From NCBI RefSeq assembly GCF_003023845.1, contig NZ_PYFT01000001.1:496001-560000 (forward strand): 64,000 bases of DNA. Direction: 5' to 3'. Of the stretch, positions 1,587 to 57,032 are shown piece by piece (the stretch's first letter is position 1; each line of letters opens with the position of its first letter). This stretch comes from Adhaeribacter arboris (GTDB lineage Bacteria; Bacteroidota; Bacteroidia; Cytophagales; Hymenobacteraceae). A program made the translations under genes and the position numbers. The notes below the pieces were generated by a model that did no database searches, was not told where the DNA came from, and saw only the letters and a list, made by a program, of their open reading frames with translations.

Positions 1587-4500
1587 ATGAAGAATCAGCT
1601 TTTTCCCAGAAAATTCCTGAAAGTTAGTTTGCCCATTCTATTACTGCTATTGGCTTTTACCTTATGGCAATGGACTAGTCGTACCGAAAAACTTTTTCGC
1701 ACCTTACCGGCTACTTCTACCAACATCCATTTTGCGAATATTATTAACCCGCCCGATTCCCTTACGGTGCTGGATTTTGAATACCTCTATAATGGCGGTG
1801 GGGTAGCTATTGGCGACATTAACAACGATGGTTTACAGGATATTTACTTTACCGGCAATTTGGTTTCGAGTAAATTATACCTGAACCGGGGCAACTTTAC
1901 ATTTGAAGACATAACCATTAAAGCCGGCGTAAGTACGCGTACCTGGGCCAACGGAGTGGTTATGGTCGATATTAATCAGGATGGTTACAAAGATATCTAC
2001 GTTTGCGTAGGCGGCAACCGCCACACTCCCGAAAAAGAAAAAGCGAATCTGCTCTTTATCAATAATAAAAACAATACGTTTACCGAAGCCGCGCAACCAT
2101 ACGGTTTAGCCGATACGGGTTACGGTATTCAGTCGGCTTTTTTCGATTACGACCGCGATGGCGATCTGGACATGTATTTACTACGCAACGCTTTTGTGGA
2201 TTACAATCGCAATAATCCCCGGCCCAAACAGCTAAACGGCAAAGCCGCCTCTACCGATAAGCTATTCCGCAATAATGGTAACCACACTTTTACCGATGTT
2301 TCGGCGGCGGCCGGAATTTTAATTGAAGGCTTTGGTTTAGGCGTGGGCGTGAGTGACATTAACAACGATGGCTGGCCCGATGTGTACGTTTCAAATGATT
2401 TTATCACGAATGATTTAGTTTGGATTAATAACCAGAACGGTACGTTTTCCAACCAAGCCAAAAAATACCTGAAACACCAGACCTACAATGCCATGGGCAA
2501 CGATTTAGCCGACCTTAACAACGACGGACTGGTCGATATTATGGTATTAGATATGTTGCCCGAAGATAACAAGCGCTGGAAGCTCACTACCATGGGCAAT
2601 AATTACGATGAATTTGAAACTAGTTTACGGCGGGGATATGAGCCTCAATACGTCCGGAATACTTTGCAGTTAAACAATGGCAGCAGCCCCAACGGTCCAA
2701 TTGCTTTTAGTGAAATCGGGCAGCTCGCCGGGGTGGAAGCTACCGAATGGAGCTGGGCACCCTTGTTCGCTGATTTAGATAATGATGGTCAGAAAGACTT
2801 ATTTATCACCAACGGCTACCCGAAAGATATCACCAATCTGGATTTTATTGTGTACGGGCACCAATCGGCCGCTATGGGCACCCGCGAAGGAAACAGGAAA
2901 GAAAGAACGGCTAAGTTAAATTCCTTGCCCGGCGCCTTAATTCCGAATTACGTGTACCAAAACCGAGGTAATTTAACTTTTAAGGACCAATCGCTAGCCT
3001 GGGGCATGACGGAACCCGCTTATTCAAACGGCGCTGCCTACGCCGACCTGGACAATGACGGCGATTTAGACTTAGTTACCAATAATATAGATAAAGAAGC
3101 CACTATTCAAGAAAACCGTTTACATCAGATTAAAAATCCTAATAAGCCTACCAATTACTTACGATTTGCTTTTACCGGATCGCCTCAAAACCGGGAAGGC
3201 ATTGGCGCCAAGGTATTTGTAAAGCATAAAGGTGTGCTGCAATATCAGTATTTTACTCCTTTCCGGGGCTATCTTTCCTCCGTGGAGCCTTACCTGCACT
3301 TTGGCTTAGACACGATTAAAGTAGTGGATAGGGTAGAAGTAGTTTGGCCGGATGGTAAATACCAGTTGCTGCAACAGGTAAAAGCCAACCAAGTCTTACA
3401 AGTAGAGTATGCCCAGGCCGGTCCGGCGCCAGCAGTTTCCACTCCTGCTGCTTCTTCTTTATTCAGGCTGGTTGCGGAGGGCGGTGGTTTAGGGTACCGG
3501 CACGAAGAGAACAGCTTTGTGGATTTCAAGCTGCAACCCTTGCTGCCCCACGGCCACTCCCGCCAGGGTCCGGGCTTAGCGGTGAGCGACGTGAACAAGG
3601 ATGGCTTAGCCGACGTGTACGTCGGTGGTACTACCGGGCACGCCGGAGCATTGTTTTTCCAGCAAGCCTCGGGTAAGTTCCAGCGGCAGTCTACACCCAC
3701 TATCGATAGTTTAGGGGAAAGTTTAGGGGTGTTGTTCTTGGATGCCGACCAGGACCAGGATCCGGATTTGTATGTAGTTAGAGGGAGCTCCGAACAAGTA
3801 CCGGGTTCTCCGTTGTACCAGGATCAACTTTATTTGAATGATGGCCAGGGGCGCTTTACTTTAGCTGCGGGTGCCTTACCTGTTATGCGCTCGAGTAAAG
3901 CCAGCGTCGTAGCGGCGGATTACGACCGGGACGGGGACTTAGACGTGTTCGTGGGCGGAAGGATCACACCGGGCGCTTACCCGACAACTCCCCGCAGCTA
4001 CTTACTGCAAAACGAGAGTAAAAACGGACAATGCCGCTTCCGGGAAGTTACTCCATCCACTTTAGCGCAGACGGGCATGGTAACGAGTGCTTTGTGGAGC
4101 GACTACGACAACGATGGCTGGGTGGACTTGCTCGTAACCGGCGAGTTCATGGCTTTGCGCTTCTACCACAATCAACGGGGCAAGTTAGTGGAAGCAACGC
4201 ATCAAACGGGTTTAGAACATACGGTTGGGTGGTGGAACAGCTTAGTCGGCGCAGACTTTGACCAGGACGGCGACATGGACTACGTGGCGGGCAACGTGGG
4301 GCTGAACACCCGTTACCAGGCCAGCGTGGAAGAACCTTTGTGCGTGCACGCCCAAGACTACAACAAAGACGGGCGCATCGATCCGGTGCTGAGCTACTTT
4401 AATCAAGGGCAGCGCTACATTCTGCACAGCAGAGATGACTTGATTGACCAGATAAATACCATGCGGGGCCGTTTCCCCACCTACCAGTCCTACGCCGCAG

Positions 4501-5153
4501 CCAAGTTCGAGGACTCGTTCTTGCCCCAGGAGTTAGCCGGCGCGCAGGTCTTGTGTGCCGAGCGGATGGCAAGCAGTTACCTGGAGAACGTCGGCCAGGG
4601 CAAGTTTCGAATAAGAGCTTTGCCCAGAGAAGTGCAGCTGGCCCCGGTGTACGGGATGGTAGTCGGCGATTACAACCAGGATGGGTACTGGGATGTGCTG
4701 GCGGTGGGCAACTCTTATGCCCCGGAAGTAAGTACGGGGCGCTACGATGCGGGACTCGGCTGGTATTTAGAAGGCAACGGGAAAGGCGGGTTCAGGAGTG
4801 TGCCGGCGAGCAAGAGCGGGCTAGTGGCCGAGCAGGATGCCAAGAGTGTGGTAGCTGTAAGGCAAGCGACTGGACAACAGCTATTGATCGTAGGCAACAA
4901 CAACAGTAGAGTAGAAGTGTTCCAGGCAGCCCCATCCGGATATTACTACCTGGCGCAGGGGCAGGATGCCTGGGCCGAGATACAGTTGAAGAACGGCAAG
5001 AGCTACAAACACGAGTTTTCCTATGGCAGTTCGTATCTCTCCCAAACCGAACGCAACCTCAAATTAACGGCGGATGTTACCTCATTGACAATTTATAGTT
5101 TCTCCGGAGAAAAAAAGGTTATTCCATTGGATTTACATGCGGTCAATCACTAA
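1587..5153 (+). CDS. CRTAC1/VCBS beta-propeller protein with ASPIC/UnbV domain (copy 1)
   Basis: Large exported or membrane-anchored protein of 1188 residues, probably acting at the cell surface with the preceding SusD. A hydrophobic segment (about residues 13-29) is a signal anchor with no lipobox Cys. Two FG-GAP/VCBS propellers (about 50-480 and 650-1150) carry many calcium-binding DxNxDG loops, the first at residues 77-85 (DINNDGLQD). An ASPIC/UnbV domain (about 535-610) with GIGAK and VEVVWPDGK motifs lies between them. Residues 571-1160 are identical to the neighbouring copy, and so is the DNA (3297-5067). The last 17 bases overlap the start of copy 2, so the two are translationally coupled. 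The substrate is unknown; binding or presentation of a polymer is inferred from context. Confidence 0.9.
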   Translation: MKNQLFPRKFLKVSLPILLLLLAFTLWQWTSRTEKLFRTLPATSTNIHFANIINPPDSLTVLDFEYLYNGGGVAIGDINNDGLQDIYFTGNLVSSKLYLNRGNFTFEDITIKAGVSTRTWANGVVMVDINQDGYKDIYVCVGGNRHTPEKEKANLLFINNKNNTFTEAAQPYGLADTGYGIQSAFFDYDRDGDLDMYLLRNAFVDYNRNNPRPKQLNGKAASTDKLFRNNGNHTFTDVSAAAGILIEGFGLGVGVSDINNDGWPDVYVSNDFITNDLVWINNQNGTFSNQAKKYLKHQTYNAMGNDLADLNNDGLVDIMVLDMLPEDNKRWKLTTMGNNYDEFETSLRRGYEPQYVRNTLQLNNGSSPNGPIAFSEIGQLAGVEATEWSWAPLFADLDNDGQKDLFITNGYPKDITNLDFIVYGHQSAAMGTREGNRKERTAKLNSLPGALIPNYVYQNRGNLTFKDQSLAWGMTEPAYSNGAAYADLDNDGDLDLVTNNIDKEATIQENRLHQIKNPNKPTNYLRFAFTGSPQNREGIGAKVFVKHKGVLQYQYFTPFRGYLSSVEPYLHFGLDTIKVVDRVEVVWPDGKYQLLQQVKANQVLQVEYAQAGPAPAVSTPAASSLFRLVAEGGGLGYRHEENSFVDFKLQPLLPHGHSRQGPGLAVSDVNKDGLADVYVGGTTGHAGALFFQQASGKFQRQSTPTIDSLGESLGVLFLDADQDQDPDLYVVRGSSEQVPGSPLYQDQLYLNDGQGRFTLAAGALPVMRSSKASVVAADYDRDGDLDVFVGGRITPGAYPTTPRSYLLQNESKNGQCRFREVTPSTLAQTGMVTSALWSDYDNDGWVDLLVTGEFMALRFYHNQRGKLVEATHQTGLEHTVGWWNSLVGADFDQDGDMDYVAGNVGLNTRYQASVEEPLCVHAQDYNKDGRIDPVLSYFNQGQRYILHSRDDLIDQINTMRGRFPTYQSYAAAKFEDSFLPQELAGAQVLCAERMASSYLENVGQGKFRIRALPREVQLAPVYGMVVGDYNQDGYWDVLAVGNSYAPEVSTGRYDAGLGWYLEGNGKGGFRSVPASKSGLVAEQDAKSVVAVRQATGQQLLIVGNNNSRVEVFQAAPSGYYYLAQGQDAWAEIQLKNGKSYKHEFSYGSSYLSQTERNLKLTADVTSLTIYSFSGEKKVIPLDLHAVNH
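3297..5067 (+). repeat. 1,771-bp direct repeat, copy A
   Basis: This block begins at CACTTTGGCTTAGACACG and ends at CAACCTCAAATTAA. It recurs at 6790-8560, offset 3493, with no difference I could find. All antisense and out-of-frame open frames inside it also recur unchanged, which confirms identity at the DNA level. The flanking sequences of the two genes diverge abruptly on both sides. Confidence 0.95.
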
Positions 5154-8100
5154 AATATTTACTTTTTTAATTTTTAGCTGGTTTCTTATCGGTTGTAAAA
5201 ATCGCGTTTCCGTTTTTGAAAGACTTTCGGCTACCAAAACGGGTATCCGCTTTACTAATACTATCCGGGAAGACGATCAGCATAATGTTTTTACCTATAC
5301 CAATATTTATACGGGTGCCGGAGTAGCCGCCGGCGACATTAACAACGATGGTTTAACGGATTTGTTTTTCAGCGGCAACATGGTTTCGGGCCGCCTCTAT
5401 TTAAATAAAGGAAATCTGAAGTTCCAGGATATTACTCCCACGGCGGGCCTGACGAGTAAACGTTGGCAAACCGGCGCTGCCATGGTGGATATTAATCAGG
5501 ATGGCTGGCTGGATATTTACGTTTGCGTTTCCGGAAATGCTGTTGACCAGGAACGCGCGAACTTGTTATACATCAACAACCGGAACAATACCTTTACCGA
5601 GAGCGCCCAAGCCTACGGTCTGGCCGATACCCGCCAGATCATGCACGCATCGTTTTTTGATTACGACCGGGATGGGGATTTGGACGTTTTTATGATTGTG
5701 AATCCGGCTTCTTTGCGCGATAATGTGAATGTTATTCGTACCCGGCAATTAAAAGGCGAGAGTGGCAGTACCGATGTTCTTTACCGGAACAATGGCGACA
5801 ACACGTTTACCGATATCTCGCGGCAAGCAGGTATTTTAGCGGAAGGCTACAGCTTAGGATTAGCTATCAGTGATATCAATAACGACGGCTGGCCGGATGT
5901 GTACATATCCAATGATTTTATTTCCAATGATGTCCTGTATATCAATAATCAGGACGGTACTTTCACCGATAAAGCCTCAGAATGCCTGAAGCATACCAGT
6001 TACGCGGGTATGGGCAACGATGTAGCCGATATCAATAACGATGGGCTGGTAGATATGGTGGAGCTCGACATGCGACCGGAAGATAATACCCGGCAAAAAT
6101 TAATTATTCCCGCCTCCGGTTACGATCGCTTTCAATTAACACTCAACCGAGGGTATGATGCCCAATACAGCCGCAATACCTTGCAACTGAACCAAGGCAA
6201 CGGCAAATTTAGTGAAGTAGGGTATTTAGCGGGTATCAGCAGCACCGATTGGAGTTGGAGCGCTTTACTAGCAGACTACGATAATGATGGTGACCGGGAC
6301 TTGTTTGTGACGAATGGGTTCCTGAAGAATATGGGTGACCTGGATTATGTGCATTATCAAAATGTGTACAACGGTCCGATCGGCAATCAGCAAGCTAAAA
6401 TCAAAAATAAAATAGAGGCGATAAAATCACTTCCAGGAGTGCCACTGAGCAATTATTTATACGAAAATACGGGCAATATTCATTTCAAAAATACATCAGC
6501 CGAATGGGGGATTGATGCCAAGGGCTTCTCAAATGGCGCCGTGTACGCCGATCTAGATAACGATGGTGATTTGGAATTAGTAGTCAATACAATAAATGCG
6601 GAAGCTCAGATTTACGAAAACAAAAGCAATGAACAATTAAAACGAAATTATTTAAAATTAAAGCTAACCGGCAACGCTCAAAACCGCAATGGTATCGGAA
6701 CCAAAATAAAACTAAGCTACCAGGGCAAGCTCCAATATTACGAACATTTTCTTTCCCGGGGGTATGAGTCGTCGGTAGATCCCATTATTCACTTTGGCTT
6801 AGACACGATTAAAGTAGTGGATAGGGTAGAAGTAGTTTGGCCGGATGGTAAATACCAGTTGCTGCAACAGGTAAAAGCCAACCAAGTCTTACAAGTAGAG
6901 TATGCCCAGGCCGGTCCGGCGCCAGCAGTTTCCACTCCTGCTGCTTCTTCTTTATTCAGGCTGGTTGCGGAGGGCGGTGGTTTAGGGTACCGGCACGAAG
7001 AGAACAGCTTTGTGGATTTCAAGCTGCAACCCTTGCTGCCCCACGGCCACTCCCGCCAGGGTCCGGGCTTAGCGGTGAGCGACGTGAACAAGGATGGCTT
7101 AGCCGACGTGTACGTCGGTGGTACTACCGGGCACGCCGGAGCATTGTTTTTCCAGCAAGCCTCGGGTAAGTTCCAGCGGCAGTCTACACCCACTATCGAT
7201 AGTTTAGGGGAAAGTTTAGGGGTGTTGTTCTTGGATGCCGACCAGGACCAGGATCCGGATTTGTATGTAGTTAGAGGGAGCTCCGAACAAGTACCGGGTT
7301 CTCCGTTGTACCAGGATCAACTTTATTTGAATGATGGCCAGGGGCGCTTTACTTTAGCTGCGGGTGCCTTACCTGTTATGCGCTCGAGTAAAGCCAGCGT
7401 CGTAGCGGCGGATTACGACCGGGACGGGGACTTAGACGTGTTCGTGGGCGGAAGGATCACACCGGGCGCTTACCCGACAACTCCCCGCAGCTACTTACTG
7501 CAAAACGAGAGTAAAAACGGACAATGCCGCTTCCGGGAAGTTACTCCATCCACTTTAGCGCAGACGGGCATGGTAACGAGTGCTTTGTGGAGCGACTACG
7601 ACAACGATGGCTGGGTGGACTTGCTCGTAACCGGCGAGTTCATGGCTTTGCGCTTCTACCACAATCAACGGGGCAAGTTAGTGGAAGCAACGCATCAAAC
7701 GGGTTTAGAACATACGGTTGGGTGGTGGAACAGCTTAGTCGGCGCAGACTTTGACCAGGACGGCGACATGGACTACGTGGCGGGCAACGTGGGGCTGAAC
7801 ACCCGTTACCAGGCCAGCGTGGAAGAACCTTTGTGCGTGCACGCCCAAGACTACAACAAAGACGGGCGCATCGATCCGGTGCTGAGCTACTTTAATCAAG
7901 GGCAGCGCTACATTCTGCACAGCAGAGATGACTTGATTGACCAGATAAATACCATGCGGGGCCGTTTCCCCACCTACCAGTCCTACGCCGCAGCCAAGTT
8001 CGAGGACTCGTTCTTGCCCCAGGAGTTAGCCGGCGCGCAGGTCTTGTGTGCCGAGCGGATGGCAAGCAGTTACCTGGAGAACGTCGGCCAGGGCAAGTTT

Positions 8101-8682
8101 CGAATAAGAGCTTTGCCCAGAGAAGTGCAGCTGGCCCCGGTGTACGGGATGGTAGTCGGCGATTACAACCAGGATGGGTACTGGGATGTGCTGGCGGTGG
8201 GCAACTCTTATGCCCCGGAAGTAAGTACGGGGCGCTACGATGCGGGACTCGGCTGGTATTTAGAAGGCAACGGGAAAGGCGGGTTCAGGAGTGTGCCGGC
8301 GAGCAAGAGCGGGCTAGTGGCCGAGCAGGATGCCAAGAGTGTGGTAGCTGTAAGGCAAGCGACTGGACAACAGCTATTGATCGTAGGCAACAACAACAGT
8401 AGAGTAGAAGTGTTCCAGGCAGCCCCATCCGGATATTACTACCTGGCGCAGGGGCAGGATGCCTGGGCCGAGATACAGTTGAAGAACGGCAAGAGCTACA
8501 AACACGAGTTTTCCTATGGCAGTTCGTATCTCTCCCAAACCGAACGCAACCTCAAATTAATGGCGGACATAGTTCAGGTTAAAATTACAGACTTCCAAGG
8601 CAGAAGCAGAAACCTGGACTTAACCGACCATAATTTATTAGCTACCAAAATCAGCAATCATCGAACATCATCATTAAAATAA
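5137..8682 (+). CDS. CRTAC1/VCBS beta-propeller lipoprotein with ASPIC/UnbV domain (copy 2)
   Basis: Tandem paralogue of the preceding gene, 1181 residues. The N-terminus has a lipoprotein signal ending in FLIGC (Cys20), unlike copy 1, so this one is probably lipid-anchored. The domain order is the same: an N-terminal propeller with DINNDG loops, a UnbV domain around residues 515-595, then a second propeller. Residues 1-551 are clearly homologous to copy 1 but strongly diverged. Residues 552-1141 are identical to copy 1, including silent positions (DNA 6790-8560). The final 40 residues differ again. This mosaic is best explained by gene conversion. The start at ATG 5137 overlaps the previous stop by 17 bases, and the DUF5009-like gene follows 8 bases after the stop. 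Confidence 0.9.
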   Translation: MRSITKIFTFLIFSWFLIGCKNRVSVFERLSATKTGIRFTNTIREDDQHNVFTYTNIYTGAGVAAGDINNDGLTDLFFSGNMVSGRLYLNKGNLKFQDITPTAGLTSKRWQTGAAMVDINQDGWLDIYVCVSGNAVDQERANLLYINNRNNTFTESAQAYGLADTRQIMHASFFDYDRDGDLDVFMIVNPASLRDNVNVIRTRQLKGESGSTDVLYRNNGDNTFTDISRQAGILAEGYSLGLAISDINNDGWPDVYISNDFISNDVLYINNQDGTFTDKASECLKHTSYAGMGNDVADINNDGLVDMVELDMRPEDNTRQKLIIPASGYDRFQLTLNRGYDAQYSRNTLQLNQGNGKFSEVGYLAGISSTDWSWSALLADYDNDGDRDLFVTNGFLKNMGDLDYVHYQNVYNGPIGNQQAKIKNKIEAIKSLPGVPLSNYLYENTGNIHFKNTSAEWGIDAKGFSNGAVYADLDNDGDLELVVNTINAEAQIYENKSNEQLKRNYLKLKLTGNAQNRNGIGTKIKLSYQGKLQYYEHFLSRGYESSVDPIIHFGLDTIKVVDRVEVVWPDGKYQLLQQVKANQVLQVEYAQAGPAPAVSTPAASSLFRLVAEGGGLGYRHEENSFVDFKLQPLLPHGHSRQGPGLAVSDVNKDGLADVYVGGTTGHAGALFFQQASGKFQRQSTPTIDSLGESLGVLFLDADQDQDPDLYVVRGSSEQVPGSPLYQDQLYLNDGQGRFTLAAGALPVMRSSKASVVAADYDRDGDLDVFVGGRITPGAYPTTPRSYLLQNESKNGQCRFREVTPSTLAQTGMVTSALWSDYDNDGWVDLLVTGEFMALRFYHNQRGKLVEATHQTGLEHTVGWWNSLVGADFDQDGDMDYVAGNVGLNTRYQASVEEPLCVHAQDYNKDGRIDPVLSYFNQGQRYILHSRDDLIDQINTMRGRFPTYQSYAAAKFEDSFLPQELAGAQVLCAERMASSYLENVGQGKFRIRALPREVQLAPVYGMVVGDYNQDGYWDVLAVGNSYAPEVSTGRYDAGLGWYLEGNGKGGFRSVPASKSGLVAEQDAKSVVAVRQATGQQLLIVGNNNSRVEVFQAAPSGYYYLAQGQDAWAEIQLKNGKSYKHEFSYGSSYLSQTERNLKLMADIVQVKITDFQGRSRNLDLTDHNLLATKISNHRTSSLK
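6790..8560 (+). repeat. 1,771-bp direct repeat, copy B
   Basis: Second copy of the block at 3297-5067, in the same reading frame of the paralogous gene. The first mismatch after it is C5068 versus T8561. See the finding on gene conversion. Confidence 0.95.
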
Positions 8683-15169: not shown

Positions 15170-15567
15170 TGGTTTAGATGAAATAATGGTAGTGTTGCAT
15201 ACGTTAGTTGGAGTTGCCCAACGTTAGAGTATTGATAAAGTTGTAACATAAGAAAAACCACCGTCTCCATACCCACCAAAGCAAATTAGCGATTTAAAGT
15301 TGAATGTTGAACATCCTGCCCCATTTTTATAAACACAATGTTGTACGCCGCTGTTTCTTTTTGCCGGCGCAAATTGATGGTTAATCTATATTATTTTTAC
15401 TTTAAAATCTAAAATAAAAAGTTCACCGCGTAAAAAGGTGGATTGCTTGTCGATACCGAAAAAGGTACTGCCGGAAGCATAATCCCTCTTAAAAGTGTCG
15501 GCTATAAATTTATTTCGGACGCTCTTTACCTTTAAATTCCGGAAAGAACTTTCCAGCATAACTTTAC
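15170..15567. other. Intergenic region holding site S1
   Basis: About 400 bp. Apart from the palindromic site S1, the remainder (15353-15567) is AT-rich and shows no credible open frame or hairpin terminator. Confidence 0.5.
15216..15352. repeat. Palindromic intergenic site S1, homologous to S6
   Basis: About 137 bp beginning CCCAACGTTAGAG and ending in TTTATAAACACAATGTTG. The two ends are inversely complementary with bulges, and the whole unit aligns along its length with 21743-21876, sharing blocks such as CCAACGTTA, AAGTTGT, ATTTAAAG and ATAAACACA. It lies between the DinB gene and the 187-residue exported protein. Confidence 0.65.
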
Positions 15568-19295: not shown

Positions 19296-19353
19296 AAAAG
19301 TAATAATAATATTACCTAACATTTATTGTTTAGGTAATATTATTATTACTTTT
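19296..19353. promoter_or_regulatory. 24-bp perfect inverted repeat overlapping the hicAB promoter
   Basis: Arms 19296-19319 and 19330-19353 (AAAAGTAATAATAATATTAC followed by CTAA, and its exact complement) flank a 10-base loop. The right arm runs into TACTTTTG (19347-19354), a match to the TAnnTTTG -7 element, with TTG at 19326-19328 as a -33 element. The toxin ATG is 27 bases after the -7 box. Probable operator for the HicB helix-turn-helix antitoxin. Confidence 0.7.
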
Positions 19354-19380
19354 GTTGTCAAAACTTATTAATAATATAAT

Positions 19381-19641
19381 ATGACAGCATCATTTCTTAT
19401 CAGCCACCTTGAGAAGGCTGGCTGGCAGCAAGTTCGTCAACAAGGAACGCACCGTATTCTTTCGCATTCCAACCATCCTAATCTTCTTTCAATTCCTGAC
19501 TTAGGAGAGCAAGCCTTAAATCCAAGCTTAGTGAATGACATTTGCCGGGAGGCAGGTTTGAAAGGGAGAGTGCATAAAATTCAACTTAGTCCAAAGGGAA
19601 TTATAACGATAGTAAAGAACCTGCTGAGCCTATCTCAGTAA
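19381..19641 (+). CDS. hicA: HicA-family mRNA interferase toxin
   Basis: Small double-stranded-RNA-binding-fold RNase of 86 residues that cleaves mRNA when unopposed. The N-terminus has the HicA layout: helix LISHLEKAGWQQVRQQGTHRILSH with GTH containing the expected catalytic His, the strand LLSIPDLGEQALNPSLVNDICREAGL with the family-typical final helix. It is 17 bases upstream of hicB in the toxin-first order usual for hicAB. The promoter and palindrome at 19296-19354 serve the pair. Plus-strand orientation sets it apart from the surrounding minus-strand array. Confidence 0.88.
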   Translation: MTASFLISHLEKAGWQQVRQQGTHRILSHSNHPNLLSIPDLGEQALNPSLVNDICREAGLKGRVHKIQLSPKGIITIVKNLLSLSQ

Positions 19642-19658
19642 TTTAAAAAATTTATCTT

Positions 19659-20075
19659 ATGCAAGAGTTTATAACCCTGCCTGTGCGCATTGATTGGGAG
19701 GAACACAAGTTTGGGGCTCAGGTGAAAGCACCCGGTTTTTTACTTACCACACAAGGCGACACGGTACCTGGTGTGTTGGAGAATTTACGTAATCTCCTCA
19801 TAGATTATTTAATGCACGAGGGTAAAAACCATCCGGAGTGGCAGGACATTACGGCAGAAGAGATTAGGTTTGAGTGTGAGTATGACTTAGCCGCTTTTTT
19901 TGAGCACTTTAAAGAACTTAAAATATCGGCCATTGCGGTTAAGGCTGGTATTAATTCCAATCTTTTGCAGCAGTACGTTTCAGGGAACAAGCGAGCTTCG
20001 GAAAGTCAAGCCAAAAAGATCCAGGCGGCTGTCCATCTTTTAGCTAATGAACTAAGACAAGTAGCTTTAAGCTAA
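19659..20075 (+). CDS. hicB: HicB-family antitoxin with C-terminal helix-turn-helix
   Basis: Antitoxin of 138 residues. The N-terminal RNase-H-like partial HicB fold (about 1-75) includes APGFLLTTQGDTVPGVLENLRNLLIDYL, the pattern that contacts HicA. The C-terminal HTH (about 88-135: ISAIAVKAGINSNLLQQYVSGNKRASES) binds DNA, probably the 24-bp inverted repeat upstream of hicA. Both proteins appear complete, so the module may be active. The palindromic site S3 begins 62 bases after its stop. Confidence 0.87.
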   Translation: MQEFITLPVRIDWEEHKFGAQVKAPGFLLTTQGDTVPGVLENLRNLLIDYLMHEGKNHPEWQDITAEEIRFECEYDLAAFFEHFKELKISAIAVKAGINSNLLQQYVSGNKRASESQAKKIQAAVHLLANELRQVALS

Positions 20076-20137
20076 AGGACACGTGTGATTGTTTCAGCAT
20101 CAATTTATGCATACTTCATGCCTGTCTACGCTTGCTA

Positions 20138-20187
20138 CCTAACGCTCCTTAGCTAAAAAGTGCAAAGTGGTTTTTAGGTATGGTTGG
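20138..20187. repeat. Palindromic intergenic site S3
   Basis: CCTAAC at the left and GGTTGG at the right enclose CTAAAAA (20153) and TTTTTAG (20171-20177). On the minus strand the 3' end reads GTTAGGT, which fits the integron core consensus GTTRRRY. It separates hicAB from the lipoprotein gene. Confidence 0.5.
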
Positions 20188-20304
20188 GGGGAGTTAATAT
20201 TTTATTTATATAAGGTAGTATTTATTTTGGTACTCAAAAAAGCTCTGGAAATTACTTTATTCCTTTTAGAATCATTATTTTTCAACTGCTACATCTGATA
20301 TCTC

Positions 20305-20523
20305 TTATTTTTCGACTACAGTGGGTATTACAGTTTCCTCTTCAACTACTGTATTTGGTATCTCTTCCTCTACACGTATTTCATCAACAGGCTTTGTTTT
20401 GGTGGTTGGCACTAGGTCGTCCTTTTTATCTTGACAAGCCGTAAAGACAAAAGTCGTTAAAAGTGGCACAAGTACTAGGTGTTTGAACACATTCACGGTT
20501 GTTTTTTTTCCTTTGTTCATCAT
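20305..20523 (-). CDS. Small Glu/Val-rich lipoprotein
   Basis: Unrecognised lipoprotein, about 72 residues from the MMNKGKK start (20523); a longer frame begins at 20565. The signal peptide ends FVFTAC, with the Cys followed by QDKKDD, a typical lipidation and surface-export context in Bacteroidota. The mature chain is short and acidic with degenerate repeats (VEEEIPNTVVEEETVIPTVVEK). The stop lies inside a repeat unit: read in frame past TAA, another EISDVAVEK then stop follows. The gene occupies one unit of the palindrome-bounded array (sites S3 and S4). Confidence 0.65.
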   Translation of the reverse strand: MMNKGKKTTVNVFKHLVLVPLLTTFVFTACQDKKDDLVPTTKTKPVDEIRVEEEIPNTVVEEETVIPTVVEK

Positions 20524-20596
20524 TGCAACGGTTTTTATGGTTATTATATAGGATGGAAGAACCATCTATTTTCCATAAAATTTGTTTTTTATTTCC

Positions 20597-20649
20597 CCCA
20601 ACGTTCTGGGCTAAACGACGGCGAAGCTGCCGTTTAGGTGTGGTTGGCA
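20597..20649. repeat. Palindromic intergenic site S4 (attC-like)
   Basis: Outer CCAAC/GTTGG pair and an inner stem from CTAAACGACGGC and GCTGCCGTTTAG around GAA, with bulged bases. The stop codon (20634-20636) of the minus-strand membrane-protein gene lies inside the right arm, so the coding sequence runs into the site. Confidence 0.6.
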
Positions 20650-21125
20650 GTTGTGATTTTTAATTTTTTACCCATTACAAACACAAGTAACAAAACATTT
20701 GTAGCGCACAGCATAAGAAAAAGTGGCACACCATAAATCCAAGCTGAAATTGCAGATTTGAAACCTTCTTGTCCGTAAGTTAGGGATTTCTGAACACCAG
20801 CAGTTATCGAACAACTGCAAAATAAAAGGACCCAAAAACTAATTATAGTGACGGTATTTACAGCAAATCTATTACCCTTCCTGATTTTATTTTCATAAAG
20901 ATCCCCAAATAAAATTGCAGCAGCTATTAATACTACTGCCTGAATAGTAAGAAAGCCAAGATTATTTTTAATTTCAATAAGTTGATTTTCTAAAATTTGA
21001 TTAGCAGTCAACATATTATCATTAAAAACGGAGACAAGCATTACTACTAACATTGGCAGCAGATAGAGTAAACCAACTGAGGCAATTATACTTTTAATAA
21101 TAATTTTAGTACCCTTTTCTATCAT
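20634..21125 (-). CDS. Four-helix integral membrane protein, unknown
   Basis: No family recognised. I choose ATG 21125 (MIEKGTKIIIK) and 163 residues; the longer frame starts at a TTG that lies within palindromic site S5. Four hydrophobic segments are visible: IIASVGLLYLLPMLVVMLVSVF, LTIQAVVLIAAAILFG, VTIISFWVLLFCSCSI and WIYGVPLFLMLCATNVLLLVFVMG. The protein is almost entirely membrane-embedded. AT-rich, alone in its unit, with no obvious promoter. Its stop overlaps site S4. A cassette-type gene of unknown function. Confidence 0.7.
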   Translation of the reverse strand: MIEKGTKIIIKSIIASVGLLYLLPMLVVMLVSVFNDNMLTANQILENQLIEIKNNLGFLTIQAVVLIAAAILFGDLYENKIRKGNRFAVNTVTIISFWVLLFCSCSITAGVQKSLTYGQEGFKSAISAWIYGVPLFLMLCATNVLLLVFVMGKKLKITTANHT

Positions 21126-21137
21126 AATTTTTATTAC

Positions 21138-21205
21138 TGCCAACGGTTAGTATAAACAACGAGCAAGGCCCTCGGCCGTAGCTTGGTGTTTATGCAGTGT
21201 TGGCA
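21138..21205. repeat. Palindromic intergenic site S5 (attC-like)
   Basis: TGCCAAC (21138-21144) pairs with GTTGGCA (21199-21205). Inside, ATAAACAACGAGCAAG pairs with CTTGGTGTTTAT with extrahelical bases, and GGCC/GGCC lies at the centre. The stop codon of the next minus-strand gene (21206-21208) directly abuts the site. Confidence 0.65.
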
Positions 21206-21712
21206 TTAGTTATTTTTTAAAGCTGGTATCTCGTTGTTTTCTGGATTCCTTTTAGAGTATTGTATCAGTAATGTATCACCAACTTTATAGATATTTTTCC
21301 TGTCTCGCAGATTGTAAGTGCTATATTGTTCATTATCGACTGTGAATTTACATTTAACAAGCCATTGGCCTTCTCTTTTCCTTGATGGCTTACTATACCA
21401 TTTTTCAATTATGATTCCTTTTGTTGTCGCACCATATTTTGAAAATTCGTAATCCGATATTTTTCCAATCCAGAGTCCGAAGGTAGGGCCAATGACTAAA
21501 ACGGAACCTACTGCTAATCCTAAACATGCTTTTTCGTTTATTTGATAAAACTGAAGCGACTTGTAAAGTAAAAAAGGAACTACAGCAAATATTATAATAA
21601 ATGGAAACCATTTAATCGCGCCTTGTTTGGCAAAAAGCATAAAATACCCAAAGCCGAAGTATAATAAAAGTAAAGTAACAGCAAGTAAAATTGGATAAGC
21701 CTTCTTATTCAT
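21206..21712 (-). CDS. Membrane protein with C-terminal DUF3592-like domain
   Basis: 168 residues. Three N-terminal membrane segments (AYPILLAVTLLLLYFGFGYFML, WFPFIIIFAVVPFLLY, LGLAVGSVLVIGPTFGLWIG) are followed by a soluble C-terminal beta domain (TKGIIIEKWYSKPSRKREGQWLVKCKFTV, VGDTLLIQYSKRNPENNEI) resembling DUF3592-type proteins. The position of the GDTLLIQYSKRNPE motif fits that family; function is unknown. The stop directly abuts palindromic site S5 and the gene lies alone between S5 and S6. Confidence 0.7.
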   Translation of the reverse strand: MNKKAYPILLAVTLLLLYFGFGYFMLFAKQGAIKWFPFIIIFAVVPFLLYKSLQFYQINEKACLGLAVGSVLVIGPTFGLWIGKISDYEFSKYGATTKGIIIEKWYSKPSRKREGQWLVKCKFTVDNEQYSTYNLRDRKNIYKVGDTLLIQYSKRNPENNEIPALKNN

Positions 21713-21742
21713 TAACTATATTAAATTGTTATTCTAATTAAT

Positions 21743-21876
21743 GCCAACGTTAAAGTGTTTATGAAGTTGTGGCAATTGAAAAACGTCAGTTTCAATCAAC
21801 CACAAAAGCAAAATAGCTATTTAAAGACGAATGCTTGACTTCCAGCCACAATTTCATAAACACACTGTTGGCTGCA
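21743..21876. repeat. Palindromic intergenic site S6 (attC-like)
   Basis: GCCAACGTTAAAGTGTTTAT plus GAAGTTGTGGC at the left is matched by the inverse complement of GCCACAATTTCATAAACACA plus CTGTTGGC at the right, with a few bulges: a near-perfect stem of about 28 bp around a 75-base interior. It shares its full length with S1 (15216-15352). Confidence 0.72.
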
Positions 21877-21896
21877 GGGCTTTTAGCGGCATACGT

Positions 21897-22445
21897 TTAT
21901 TTTAATTTTTCAAACATCATCTTCACTTTTTGCTCTTTATCTAAAGGGATAATAGTAAAAACATAGCTGTCTGAATTTATATCAAGAAGTTCTATTGAAA
22001 AACCCTGAGGCTTTAGTTCTTGCTTATCAATTAAGTTTATTATTTCACCCGTGTCATGCGCTCGATAGAAGTCGTCCTCTGAAAGTGTAAAGTCATACCT
22101 TTTTGCAATTCTTATTTCGTTCAAATAAATACGAATTTCGCTTTCTGGTTCTTTCCAATCTACTTCGGCCATTTGTCCATTTTCAAGCAAGGTGTCTACC
22201 AAAACAAATTTCGGTGTTAGTAAAGCATCTTGCGGATATTTCAACCCGCGTTCGGATAAAATGAAATTTTTATTATCATCATAAAAAGCTTTTGGGTCTT
22301 GAAACGCTTGCTTAAGGTTAGCTTTCAAGTCACTCTTTAAAGTATCGGAAATTACAATATAGTCAACAATTTCTTCGTAAAATGCTAAGTCAGGATTAGA
22401 CTTGCGACTTTGTTTCTCGCCAAAGATTTTTGATAAAAATCCCAT
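21897..22445 (-). CDS. DUF6630-like cytoplasmic protein
   Basis: Soluble protein of 182 residues. It starts MGFLSKIFGEKQ and contains YPQDALLTPKFVLVDTLLENGQMAEVDWKE, a segment reminiscent of the DUF6630 family in which a middle region ends in a conserved EVDWKE-like motif. No catalytic residues can be named. No signal peptide or membrane segment. It sits alone between palindromic sites S6 and S7 in the minus-strand array. Function unknown; assignment by recalled resemblance only. Confidence 0.65.
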   Translation of the reverse strand: MGFLSKIFGEKQSRKSNPDLAFYEEIVDYIVISDTLKSDLKANLKQAFQDPKAFYDDNKNFILSERGLKYPQDALLTPKFVLVDTLLENGQMAEVDWKEPESEIRIYLNEIRIAKRYDFTLSEDDFYRAHDTGEIINLIDKQELKPQGFSIELLDINSDSYVFTIIPLDKEQKVKMMFEKLK

Positions 22446-22455
22446 AATTATGATA

Positions 22456-22590
22456 ATGCCATTTAGTTAGGTGCTCGTGTCGCCTTGCAGCCAACTCCCA
22501 GATATACGGAACTGTTCCGGTTATTGGCATTCTATTTTACTTAGTTACTCCGTATATCCACCCAAAAACAACCGACAACCGGAATGCATT
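22456..22590. repeat. Palindromic intergenic site S7 (compound)
   Basis: GATATACGGA (22501-22510) is the exact complement of TCCGTATATC (22549-22558), and CCGGTT (22518) pairs with AACCGG (22577). GTTAGGTG (22465-22472) and GCAGCCAAC (22487-22495) at its left are the terminal core motifs seen at other sites. It closes the array on the side of actP. Confidence 0.55.
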
Positions 22591-22789: not shown

Positions 22790-24370
22790 TTACTCCGCCC
22801 CAATACCTAAATAAGTCCGCAGTTTTTCAGATTCAAACTTTTCGGCGGCGGCTGTTTCCGGATTAGCTAAAGACACCACAATACCAACGAAAAAAGCAGC
22901 GGACATAGATACCAAGGCCGGGTTTTTAAGCGGGAAAATAGCCTCAGGGTGGTGCAATATATCTACCCATACGGTGGGGCTAAGCACAATGAGCACCAGC
23001 GATAAAAAGGCACCCGTAGCAATGCTCCAAACAGCTCCTTGGGTGGTAAATTTCTTCCAGATGATCGACATGAGCAAAGCCGGGAAATTAGCGCTGGCCG
23101 CAATGGAAAAAGCTAAACCCACCATAAAGGCTACGTTTTGACCTTTAAATACCAAACCTAACACAATCGATAAAACACCTAAAGCAACCGTAGCCCGTTT
23201 GGCTACTTTCATTTCGCCTTTCTCGTTGGATACACCTTTTTGGAAAACGTGCACGTACAAATCGTGCGAAATACTGGAAGCGCCGGAAAGCGTTAAACCC
23301 GCCACTACCGCCAGAATAGTAGCAAAAGCCACTGCCGCAATAAAGCCCAGAAAAGCCGTGCCGCCGGCTTGTTCGGCCAGCAACAAAGCCGCCATATTAC
23401 CCCCTTTATCAATACCTTCAATAACGGGTTTGCCTACTAAAACCATGGCCGAAAAACCAATAAAAAAAGTAAGAATATAAAAATAACCGATAAAACCGGT
23501 AGCCACAAAAACCGATTTACGCGCGGCTTTAGCATCCGGTACGGTGTAAAAACGCATGAGAATATGCGGCAATCCGGCTGTTCCCAGCATTAAAGCCAAA
23601 CCCAGGGATAAGGCATCGAAAGGATTAGTAATAAAACCGCCGGGAGCCAGCATGGCCTCCCCGTATTTTTCGGCGACCGCTTGAAACAAATTAGCCGGAC
23701 TAAAATTAAAAGTTGCCAGCGACAATAGTACCAGCACCGTTGCGCCACTCAAAAGTAAAACCGCTTTAATAATTTGGACCCAGGTAGTTGCCAGCATGCC
23801 TCCAAATAACACGTAAGCCGTCATCACGCAACCGACCACCACTACGGCCAACTCGTACTGCAACCCGAATAAAGTTTTGATTAGACCACCGGCGCCTACC
23901 ATTTGCGCAATCAGGTAAAAAGCAATGGTTAGTAAAGAACCTACCGACGACACAATCCGGATGGGGCGCTGTTGCAGGCGGTAGGCTACCACATCGGCGA
24001 AGGTATACTTGCCTAAATTGCGGAGCGGTTCGGCAATTAAAAACATAATTAAAGGCCAGCCTACCAGAAAGCCAATCGAATAAATTAGACCGTCGTACCC
24101 TTTGGTGGCTACCATGCCGGCAATGCCCAGGAAAGAAGCCGCACTCATGTAATCGCCGGCCAGAGCCAAGCCGTTCTGGAACCCCGAAATATTACGGCCC
24201 GCCGCGTAAAACTCAGAACCGGTTTTGGTTTTCTTGGCCGCCCAGTAAGTAATGTATAGGGTAATTGCCACAAACAAAAAGAACATAACAATAGAAACGG
24301 GATTGGCCGTGCCTAAAGTAGAGGCAGCCGGCAGTGCAGAAACCTGCAGCAAAAGAGAAGAAGTAAGCAT
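22790..24370 (-). CDS. actP: Cation/acetate symporter (SSS family)
   Basis: Sodium:solute symporter of 526 residues with about 13 membrane helices, importing acetate or related monocarboxylates. The N-terminal [36 protein letters not shown] is the diagnostic ActP/YjcG signature. Ion-site-bearing helices [21 protein letters not shown] and [16 protein letters not shown] are also typical. It begins 8 bases after the DUF485 gene and is probably co-transcribed with it. Functional link to acs at 11.4 kb. The family also includes pyruvate and propionate transporters, so substrate is likely rather than certain. Confidence 0.93.
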
Positions 24371-56263: not shown

Positions 56264-56403
56264 TAAGGACAACTTTTATCCAAAGATACAGGTTTTCTGG
56301 CAGACTGTTTCTGGTTCTCAAATGTGGATTAACGGCCTGGTATAAAAGGCGAACGAGGCATGGTCAAAGTATGGCTTTTATGCCTGGTTAGCTTTTGTGA
56401 TTC

Positions 56404-56985
56404 TTACCACTCCATTACTAGAAGATAGTAAATTGGTACGTACAGTACTGATGCTGCTAAAAAATTAAGAATTGCCCTACCCACAGTTATGTTCTGAACT
56501 ACCGTTAAGTTTTTTACCAAACGTACAAGCGTCCAAATAGCCAAGATTCCAATTGCAATCTTCAACACAGGCATTATTACAATGAGAGCTATCATGTTTT
56601 CTTGAATGATACTACTTTCGAAAAAGTGGGCAATTGTCAAATATAAGACTATCAGAGCAACAGTATACAAATGAGGCAAGTATGCAAGACTAAAAGCTTT
56701 CAAGATATTTTTATAGGAACCTTCTGTATTAAAGAATTTGCCTGTGAGCTTAACAAAATAGCACATGATAAAATTAGACACACAACCATACAGAAAACCA
56801 ATAACTATAAGCGATATGATAAGTGGCGGCAAGTCAATTTTTAAGGCAAGAAAATAGTCTTGCTTTAAGGTAAAGTAGGCGAATACACCTTGCAAGGTGA
56901 AGAACCATATTGTCTTTCCCCAACGGACATTTTCTTGAAGTGCTTCTTCAATACTTATATTTGAATTATCTACAATTTGACTCAT
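56404..56985 (-). CDS. Yip1-like membrane protein
   Basis: 193 residues from ATG 56985 (MSQIVDNSN); the longer frame starts at TTG 57003. Five hydrophobic segments (TIWFFTLQGVFAYFTL, LIISLIVIGFLYGCVSNFIMCYF, LYTVALIVLYLTIAHFF, MIALIVIMPVLKIAIGILAIW, AILNFLAASVLYVPIYYLLV). The pattern FFNTEGSYKNILKAFSLAYLPHL, with a soluble N-terminus and a Tyr/Pro-containing third loop, fits the broad Yip1 group. Function unknown. Divergently or separately expressed from hemL, which ends 30 bp on the other side. Confidence 0.65.
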   Translation of the reverse strand: MSQIVDNSNISIEEALQENVRWGKTIWFFTLQGVFAYFTLKQDYFLALKIDLPPLIISLIVIGFLYGCVSNFIMCYFVKLTGKFFNTEGSYKNILKAFSLAYLPHLYTVALIVLYLTIAHFFESSIIQENMIALIVIMPVLKIAIGILAIWTLVRLVKNLTVVQNITVGRAILNFLAASVLYVPIYYLLVMEW

Positions 56986-57032
56986 TAAATTATTAGATAT
57001 CAACGTTAACTTCTAGATAAATGGAATAACTG

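Follow-up and report, generated by a model that had tools for sequence, protein, structure and literature searches.

An orphan cassette array of a putative integron-like system in the Bacteroidota

Within the 64,000 nucleotides of the Adhaeribacter arboris genome analysed here (contig NZ_PYFT01000001.1, positions 496,001 to 560,000, forward strand; hereafter the window), four consecutive minus-strand genes form an orphan array of cassettes that very probably belongs to an integron-like system of Bacteroidota. To our knowledge, integron function is taken to require a single specialised integrase, IntI. The sequence-only reading of this DNA had proposed an integron-like array, possibly Bacteroidota-specific; the proposal is borne out by cassettes shared with exact boundaries, by a conserved attI site behind which cassettes are exchanged, and by complementarity between the start of each cassette and its own end. 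Judged by sequence comparison, the system works like an integron and falls outside the IntI type; it is set apart from IntI-type integrons and classical attC sites because two features that define these, the IntI insertion and the extrahelical bases, are absent. A large phylum would thus carry cassette arrays of integron logic with a different enzyme. Reports of complete integrons in Bacteroidota are rare (PMC9024848), and our search of the open-access literature, outside of which lie preprints and most subscription papers, found no description of such a system.

Architecture of the array and its sites

The four genes (20305-22445) are each closed by one site, all features lying on the minus strand. 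Cassette 1 (21749..22495, 747 bp) carries the gene at 21897-22445, a DUF6630 member (Pfam E 1e-23); cassette 2 (21145..21748, 604 bp) carries a weakly DUF3592-like gene (21206-21712, Pfam below cut-off); cassette 3 (20603..21144, 542 bp) encodes a membrane protein (20634-21125) and cassette 4 (20144..20602, 459 bp) a small lipoprotein-like protein (20305-20523). They are closed, in this order, by S6 (21741..21874), S5 (21137..21206), S4 (20595..20650) and S3 (20136..20190), the last of which is the final site of the array. The sequence-only reading was right that the gene at 21206 abuts S5 and that the gene at 20634 ends inside S4; its description of four genes each separated by a palindromic site holds for S3 to S6, and S7, which it had counted among them, is not a cassette site. 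At 68% DNA identity, a relative of the cassette 1 gene with DUF6630 occurs in a genome from another family of the order (G514 C1:1741780-1742223). Adjoining the array end on the plus strand are a HicA toxin-type gene and a possible partner (19296-20075), with a perfect 24-nt inverted repeat upstream, at 19296-19353.

Sites were scored with two covariance models: R1, built from sites of this genome with seeds trimmed to equal length, and R2, for which the model was rebuilt on 86 sites from across the bacterial family; the alignments made afterwards took the sequences as they are. RNAalifold applied to a MAFFT alignment did not recover the inner stem, as the spacers differ by one base. R2 returned S5 at 65.2 bits (E 1.5e-14), S4 at 54.9 bits (E 7e-12) and S3 at 39.8 bits (E 6e-8). 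When each site was folded, S5 (z -5.5) and S6 (z -4.7) did much better than shuffles, and S3 (z -0.4) and S4 (z -0.7), taken alone, did no better than shuffles; the folding check suggested earlier for every site thus succeeds for S5 and S6 and fails for S3, S4 and S7. Despite their weak single folds, S3 and S4 are secure members of the covarying family because of their R2 scores in the window. S6, whose bottom strand is the plus strand, is a long variant of which both strands fold about equally well and which has close copies (88-92%) in other arrays, at locus L026. A lone site of the same family (56326..56394, minus strand; R2 43.8 bits, E 5.6e-9) lies behind the gene at 56404-57003. An Rfam search returned tRNAs only, and the plain GCCAAC...GTTGGC pattern matched 13 places, just 2 of them true sites. 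Elsewhere in the window, a decayed S6-type long site (15214-15344; 78% to L026 12309-12432) lies outside any array, and positions 3024-5074 and 6529-8567 form a two-kilobase direct repeat, 94.8% identical.

Compared with the attC features given in PMC2727003, the sites share length, outer boxes, unequal unpaired spacers, a variable loop, strand bias and covariation, and differ in their want of extrahelical bases and in a GTTRR core. GTT occurs in 85 of the 86 family sites and GTTRR in 69, the full GTTRRRY and RYYYAAC motifs in 22 and 20, respectively. The unpaired spacers measure 7-9 and mostly 5 nt and the loops vary, as in the central spacers and terminal structure of attC. Among the 86 sites, all of the short type, the unpartnered column that would hold an extrahelical base in the L stem is filled in one; in its place stand a purine mismatch and a G-T wobble (84/86; C-A on the top strand). 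The bottom strand is the more stable in 84/86 sites, and the alignment holds 174 double-change cells as compared to 77 in shuffles, with 0/500 shuffles scoring as high.

The remaining palindromic candidate, S7, had been taken for a further cassette site. It is devoid of a paired outer box, folds at chance level (z -1.0 and -1.6) and carries AATAACCGGAACAGTTCCGTATATCTGGGA/GTT (the slash marks the crossover), which is matched once in the window and never in shuffles; because this sequence heads other arrays of the genome, S7 is better described as an attI-like site heading the array (22496..22532, minus strand, crossover core A/GTT at 22496/22495). The attI sequence of the window recurs at 13 further places in the genome (0 for the reversed-pattern control), so that 14 attI-like sites stand against 0 for the reversed pattern. 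Flanking it is an actP-type symporter gene (22790..24370, minus strand), which in part of the genus is constantly found next to this attI: three congeners possess the attI behind actP together with other first cassettes, the match to the window stopping at A/GTT, and in three other congeners the attI is absent behind actP. These comparisons show a conserved attI behind which cassettes have been exchanged at one locus in sister species.

A recombinase associated with the arrays

That no integrase lies in the window was correctly noted; at the level of the genome the absence does not hold, as a recombinase gene stands beside the same attI sequence at C1:6676226-6677668 (L026 4227-5669). Its 480-aa product is the one intact array recombinase found in the genome, which carries at least about 68 sites (R2, among the 150 best candidates). 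About 150 bp separate the gene from the attI that follows it in the array at 6.68 Mb, and this array is complete: the attI adjoins the recombinase gene and heads a polar tandem of single-gene cassettes with exact core boundaries.

Recombinase matches at E 1e-60 or better are present in 65/120 genomes of the family, and in 16 of the 17 family loci read a conserved attI follows the recombinase stop by about 150 bp, its last bases, A/GTT, being the cassette boundary. Polarity is uniform: R1 sites (E up to 0.02, 33 loci) lie on the expected strand, opposite to the genes, in 86/86 cases. Sites at E 1e-5 occur in all 13 genomes examined that have the recombinase, and 12 genomes of two sister genera that lack it have none, so that sequence comparison shows sites and recombinase to be associated. 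Two congeners (G009 and G024) keep sites (16 and 11) and attI, with no recombinase found, so some arrays may be relics, or another enzyme may act. A phylum search at E 1e-80 retrieved one distant match only; an alignment search reached a wider family, with relatives of 30-50% identity in Flavobacteriaceae, Bacteroidales, Cytophagales and Chitinophagaceae, most of them with an N-terminal extension. Downstream of 20 such phylum-wide relatives lie 61 sites on the expected strand and 3 on the other, with 2 upstream. Recombinases of 41% identity in g6 (L087, L094) also adjoin sites, and the recombinase family is therefore wider than the 60-68% group. A second relative of the recombinase is broken by internal stops (L028 12661-12732 and 13293-14327) and has one attC-like site beside it.

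The array recombinase differs from IntI by profile, alignment and phylogeny. Among NCBIfam models, an XerA-type model reaches 208 bits (cut-off 220), and the integron integrase model TIGR02249 reaches 201 bits in two pieces, below its cut-off of 265. In the alignment, all 17 IntI carry the IntI-specific insertion (about 192-236 in IntI1), which every array recombinase examined lacks; the insertion is likewise a gap in the array recombinase against the IntI4 structure 2a3v. A passage of PMC9668308 that cites Messier and Roy gives the additional domain around patch III as the IntI-defining feature and describes it as unique to IntI and needed for integron recombination; this is the domain missing from the array recombinase. 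The insertion is not fully conserved in the integron-like subgroup of PMC8138268. In the tree, the IntI group together (100/99), the Bacteroidota array recombinases fall into a second clade (94/89, inner 98/85), and XerC/XerD lie outside both; the exception is one Prolixibacteraceae array recombinase (L155) that is sister to IntI with modest support.

An AlphaFold model of the array recombinase (pLDDT 84) places its core close to XerA (Z 22.8) and IntI4 (Z 20.0), the best solved match being the archaeal XerA 4a8e. The N-terminal part is modelled as two modules, each strand-strand-helix-strand-strand-helix-strand, on which a full-length fold search was uninformative. Their nearest solved fold is the XPB N-terminal domain, weakly matched (Z 6.3 over 57 residues); the match to the SMARCAL1 HARP domain 4o66 is weak as well (Foldseek probability 0.51), Pfam HARP appears below cut-off in 7/25 recombinase members (best E 0.011), and with the modules folded alone no match reached Z 8, nor was a HARP chain among the matches listed. 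As modelled, the N-terminal modules weakly resemble HARP/XPB DNA-recognition domains.

The genome-wide search for intI that had been proposed did return an IntI-type gene, at 1.66 Mb (C1:1659408-1660301; L009 9346-10338), which passes the TIGR02249 cut-off at 297 bits; the gene bears an in-frame TAG just before its LRHS motif and has no cassette sites nearby, and on these two grounds we rejected it as the cassette mover. Its presence, along with a site anatomy and a cassette logic that match those of integrons, is what would speak for an ordinary CALIN or sedentary integron, with genuine attC sites that a genuine IntI moves or once moved. We regard this explanation as improbable. Apart from the state of the IntI gene itself, i) of 58 phylum genomes with IntI, only this one and G156 belong to the same class, ii) the sites track the other recombinase, which has no IntI insertion and stands outside the IntI clade, and iii) the conserved bulged base of attC is absent from the sites, and R2 found no match on a class 1 integron and a Vibrio integron.

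Cassette exchange and matching ends

Cassette 4 is found a second time in the genome: window 20138-20603 equals L026 7664-8128 at 99.6%, within the array at 6.68 Mb and among different neighbours, and the identity starts at C/GTT and stops in CGTT. Five further units are repeated among or within the arrays of this genome, with breakpoints at or beside the GTT core. Beyond the species, G002 and G038 share a 1019-bp unit at 100% identity, which stands first behind attI in the former and inside an array in the latter, and a 640-bp unit is 92.8% identical between the congener G003 and Rufibacter. At the level of sequence, these cases show that units have moved from array to array and across species and genera, and that the breaks fall at the GTT core. 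The array proposal had been staked on related strains gaining or losing single units at these boundaries; such exchanges are found, in the shared units and in the first cassettes exchanged behind the actP attI, and the proposal stands.

The cassettes also fit their own ends. In the window, the first eight bases of each cassette are the exact reverse complement of the outer box of its own site in 4/4 cases: cassette 1 starts with GTTGGCTG, cassette 2 with GTTGGCAT and cassette 3 with GTTGGCAG, the reverse complements (8/8 each) of the R'' boxes of S6, S5 and S4, respectively; cassette 4 starts with GTTGGGGG and its own site S3 begins with CCCCCAAC (8/8), yet S3 ends with GTTAGGTA in the array. 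Across the bacterial family, a mean of 4.1 of the five bases after GTT are matched (37 neighbour pairs), as compared to 2.3 for random pairing and 2.7/5 in a within-one-site control. In phylum-wide arrays, where we used a scan independent of box pairing, the match is perfect for 25/31 cassettes (0.9 expected at random) and for 1/61 in the within-one-site control. Eleven of the 14 attI-like sites of the genome are followed by a site closing the first cassette at 7-8 of 8 bases, and three have no matching first site. If a cassette leaves as a circle cut at the GTT core, its own start has to close its own site, and cassette ends with a start complementary to their own R'' are compatible with such a circular form.

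These observations bear on the possibility that homologous recombination, gene conversion or insertion sequences acted between similar repeats with no site-specific enzyme, for which it can be said that some sites are mutually similar and that insertion sequences adjoin several arrays. We hold this very unlikely: the sites on either side of a shared unit are short and for the most part unlike each other, the boundaries of shared units fall at the same GTT core every time, and homologous exchange would not match the first bases of a unit to the outer box of its own site. Modules driven by XerC/XerD at dif-like sites, as in pdif modules, would suit the Xer-like recombinase core with its best solved match in XerA, and are hardly credible here, given that the sites are 53-135-nt hairpins with variable stems, always on one strand, rather than conserved 28-bp duplex sites, and that they track the extended recombinase, from which Xer proteins form a separate clade. 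Immobile terminator-like or REP-like hairpins between unrelated genes, suggested by how common hairpins between small genes are and by the weak folding of S3 and S4 alone, are contradicted by the exact sharing of units, besides the exchanged cassettes behind one attI, the own-end complementarity and the polarity, and can practically be set aside.

Proposed mechanism and relation to known systems

For the integron-like system, we infer catalysis by the 480-aa tyrosine recombinase, a single enzyme that would act in trans on about 14 attI-headed arrays, since one intact recombinase was found as compared to 14 attI-like sites. By recombining two cassette sites it would release a cassette in circular form and insert it at attI. 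As in integrons, the cassette site may act through its bottom strand, single-stranded and folded; the better folding of 84/86 bottom strands and a sequence that varies with pairing kept point in this direction. The N-terminal HARP/XPB-like modules might then recognise the folded site, a role suggested by the absence of the insertion that does so in IntI. Whether all of this amounts to a second integron class in Bacteroidota, with folded single-stranded sites used without the IntI domain, HARP/XPB-like recognition and many arrays served in trans, we judge to be evenly balanced.

Sedentary chromosomal integrons, for example those of Vibrio, have the same order of recombinase, attI and array, the same polar one-gene cassettes, the same GTT core, R''/R' boxes, unequal unpaired spacers and better-folding bottom strand, and the same complementarity of the cassette start to its own R''. 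In contrast to these, the recombinase here has no IntI insertion, bears extra N-terminal modules and occupies its own clade; the sites have no extrahelical stem base and follow GTTRR more than GTTRRRY (22/86 full); and many attI-headed arrays accompany one recombinase gene. The window array resembles a CALIN in its several sites and no adjoining recombinase, but an attI-like site stands at its head, no match links its sites to canonical attC, and elsewhere in the genome a recombinase is encoded next to the same attI sequence. XerA, XerC and XerD share the catalytic and core-binding domains and are likewise devoid of the IntI insertion; unlike them, the array recombinase has extra N-terminal modules, forms a separate clade and heads cassette arrays.

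If the system is active, there would be two recombinase designs for cassette shuffling, and such sites could be used by other means than the IntI-specific domain; a good number of the small, functionally uncharacterised genes in these genomes would constitute a mobile pool that may escape present integron finders. It would also provide a second system for testing how a recombinase reads a DNA hairpin.

Other arrays offered further observations. In the array at 118-138 kb, an IS110-type transposase lies inside a cassette site (L025 11908-12963), and G006 has a related element, 82% over 1.4 kb, in a site of like kind (L101 9342-10747); such insertions are reminiscent of the IS1111-attC group of classical integrons. 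Toxin-antitoxin-type cassette pairs, as in large chromosomal integrons, are present at L026 18066-18702 (a Gp49-like and an HTH protein) and at L030 13068-14496 (a nucleotidyltransferase-like pair). In two arrays, near-identical transposase genes (L029 6619-8151 and L030 15079-16611) lie just before attI, as if the platform had been copied or disrupted.
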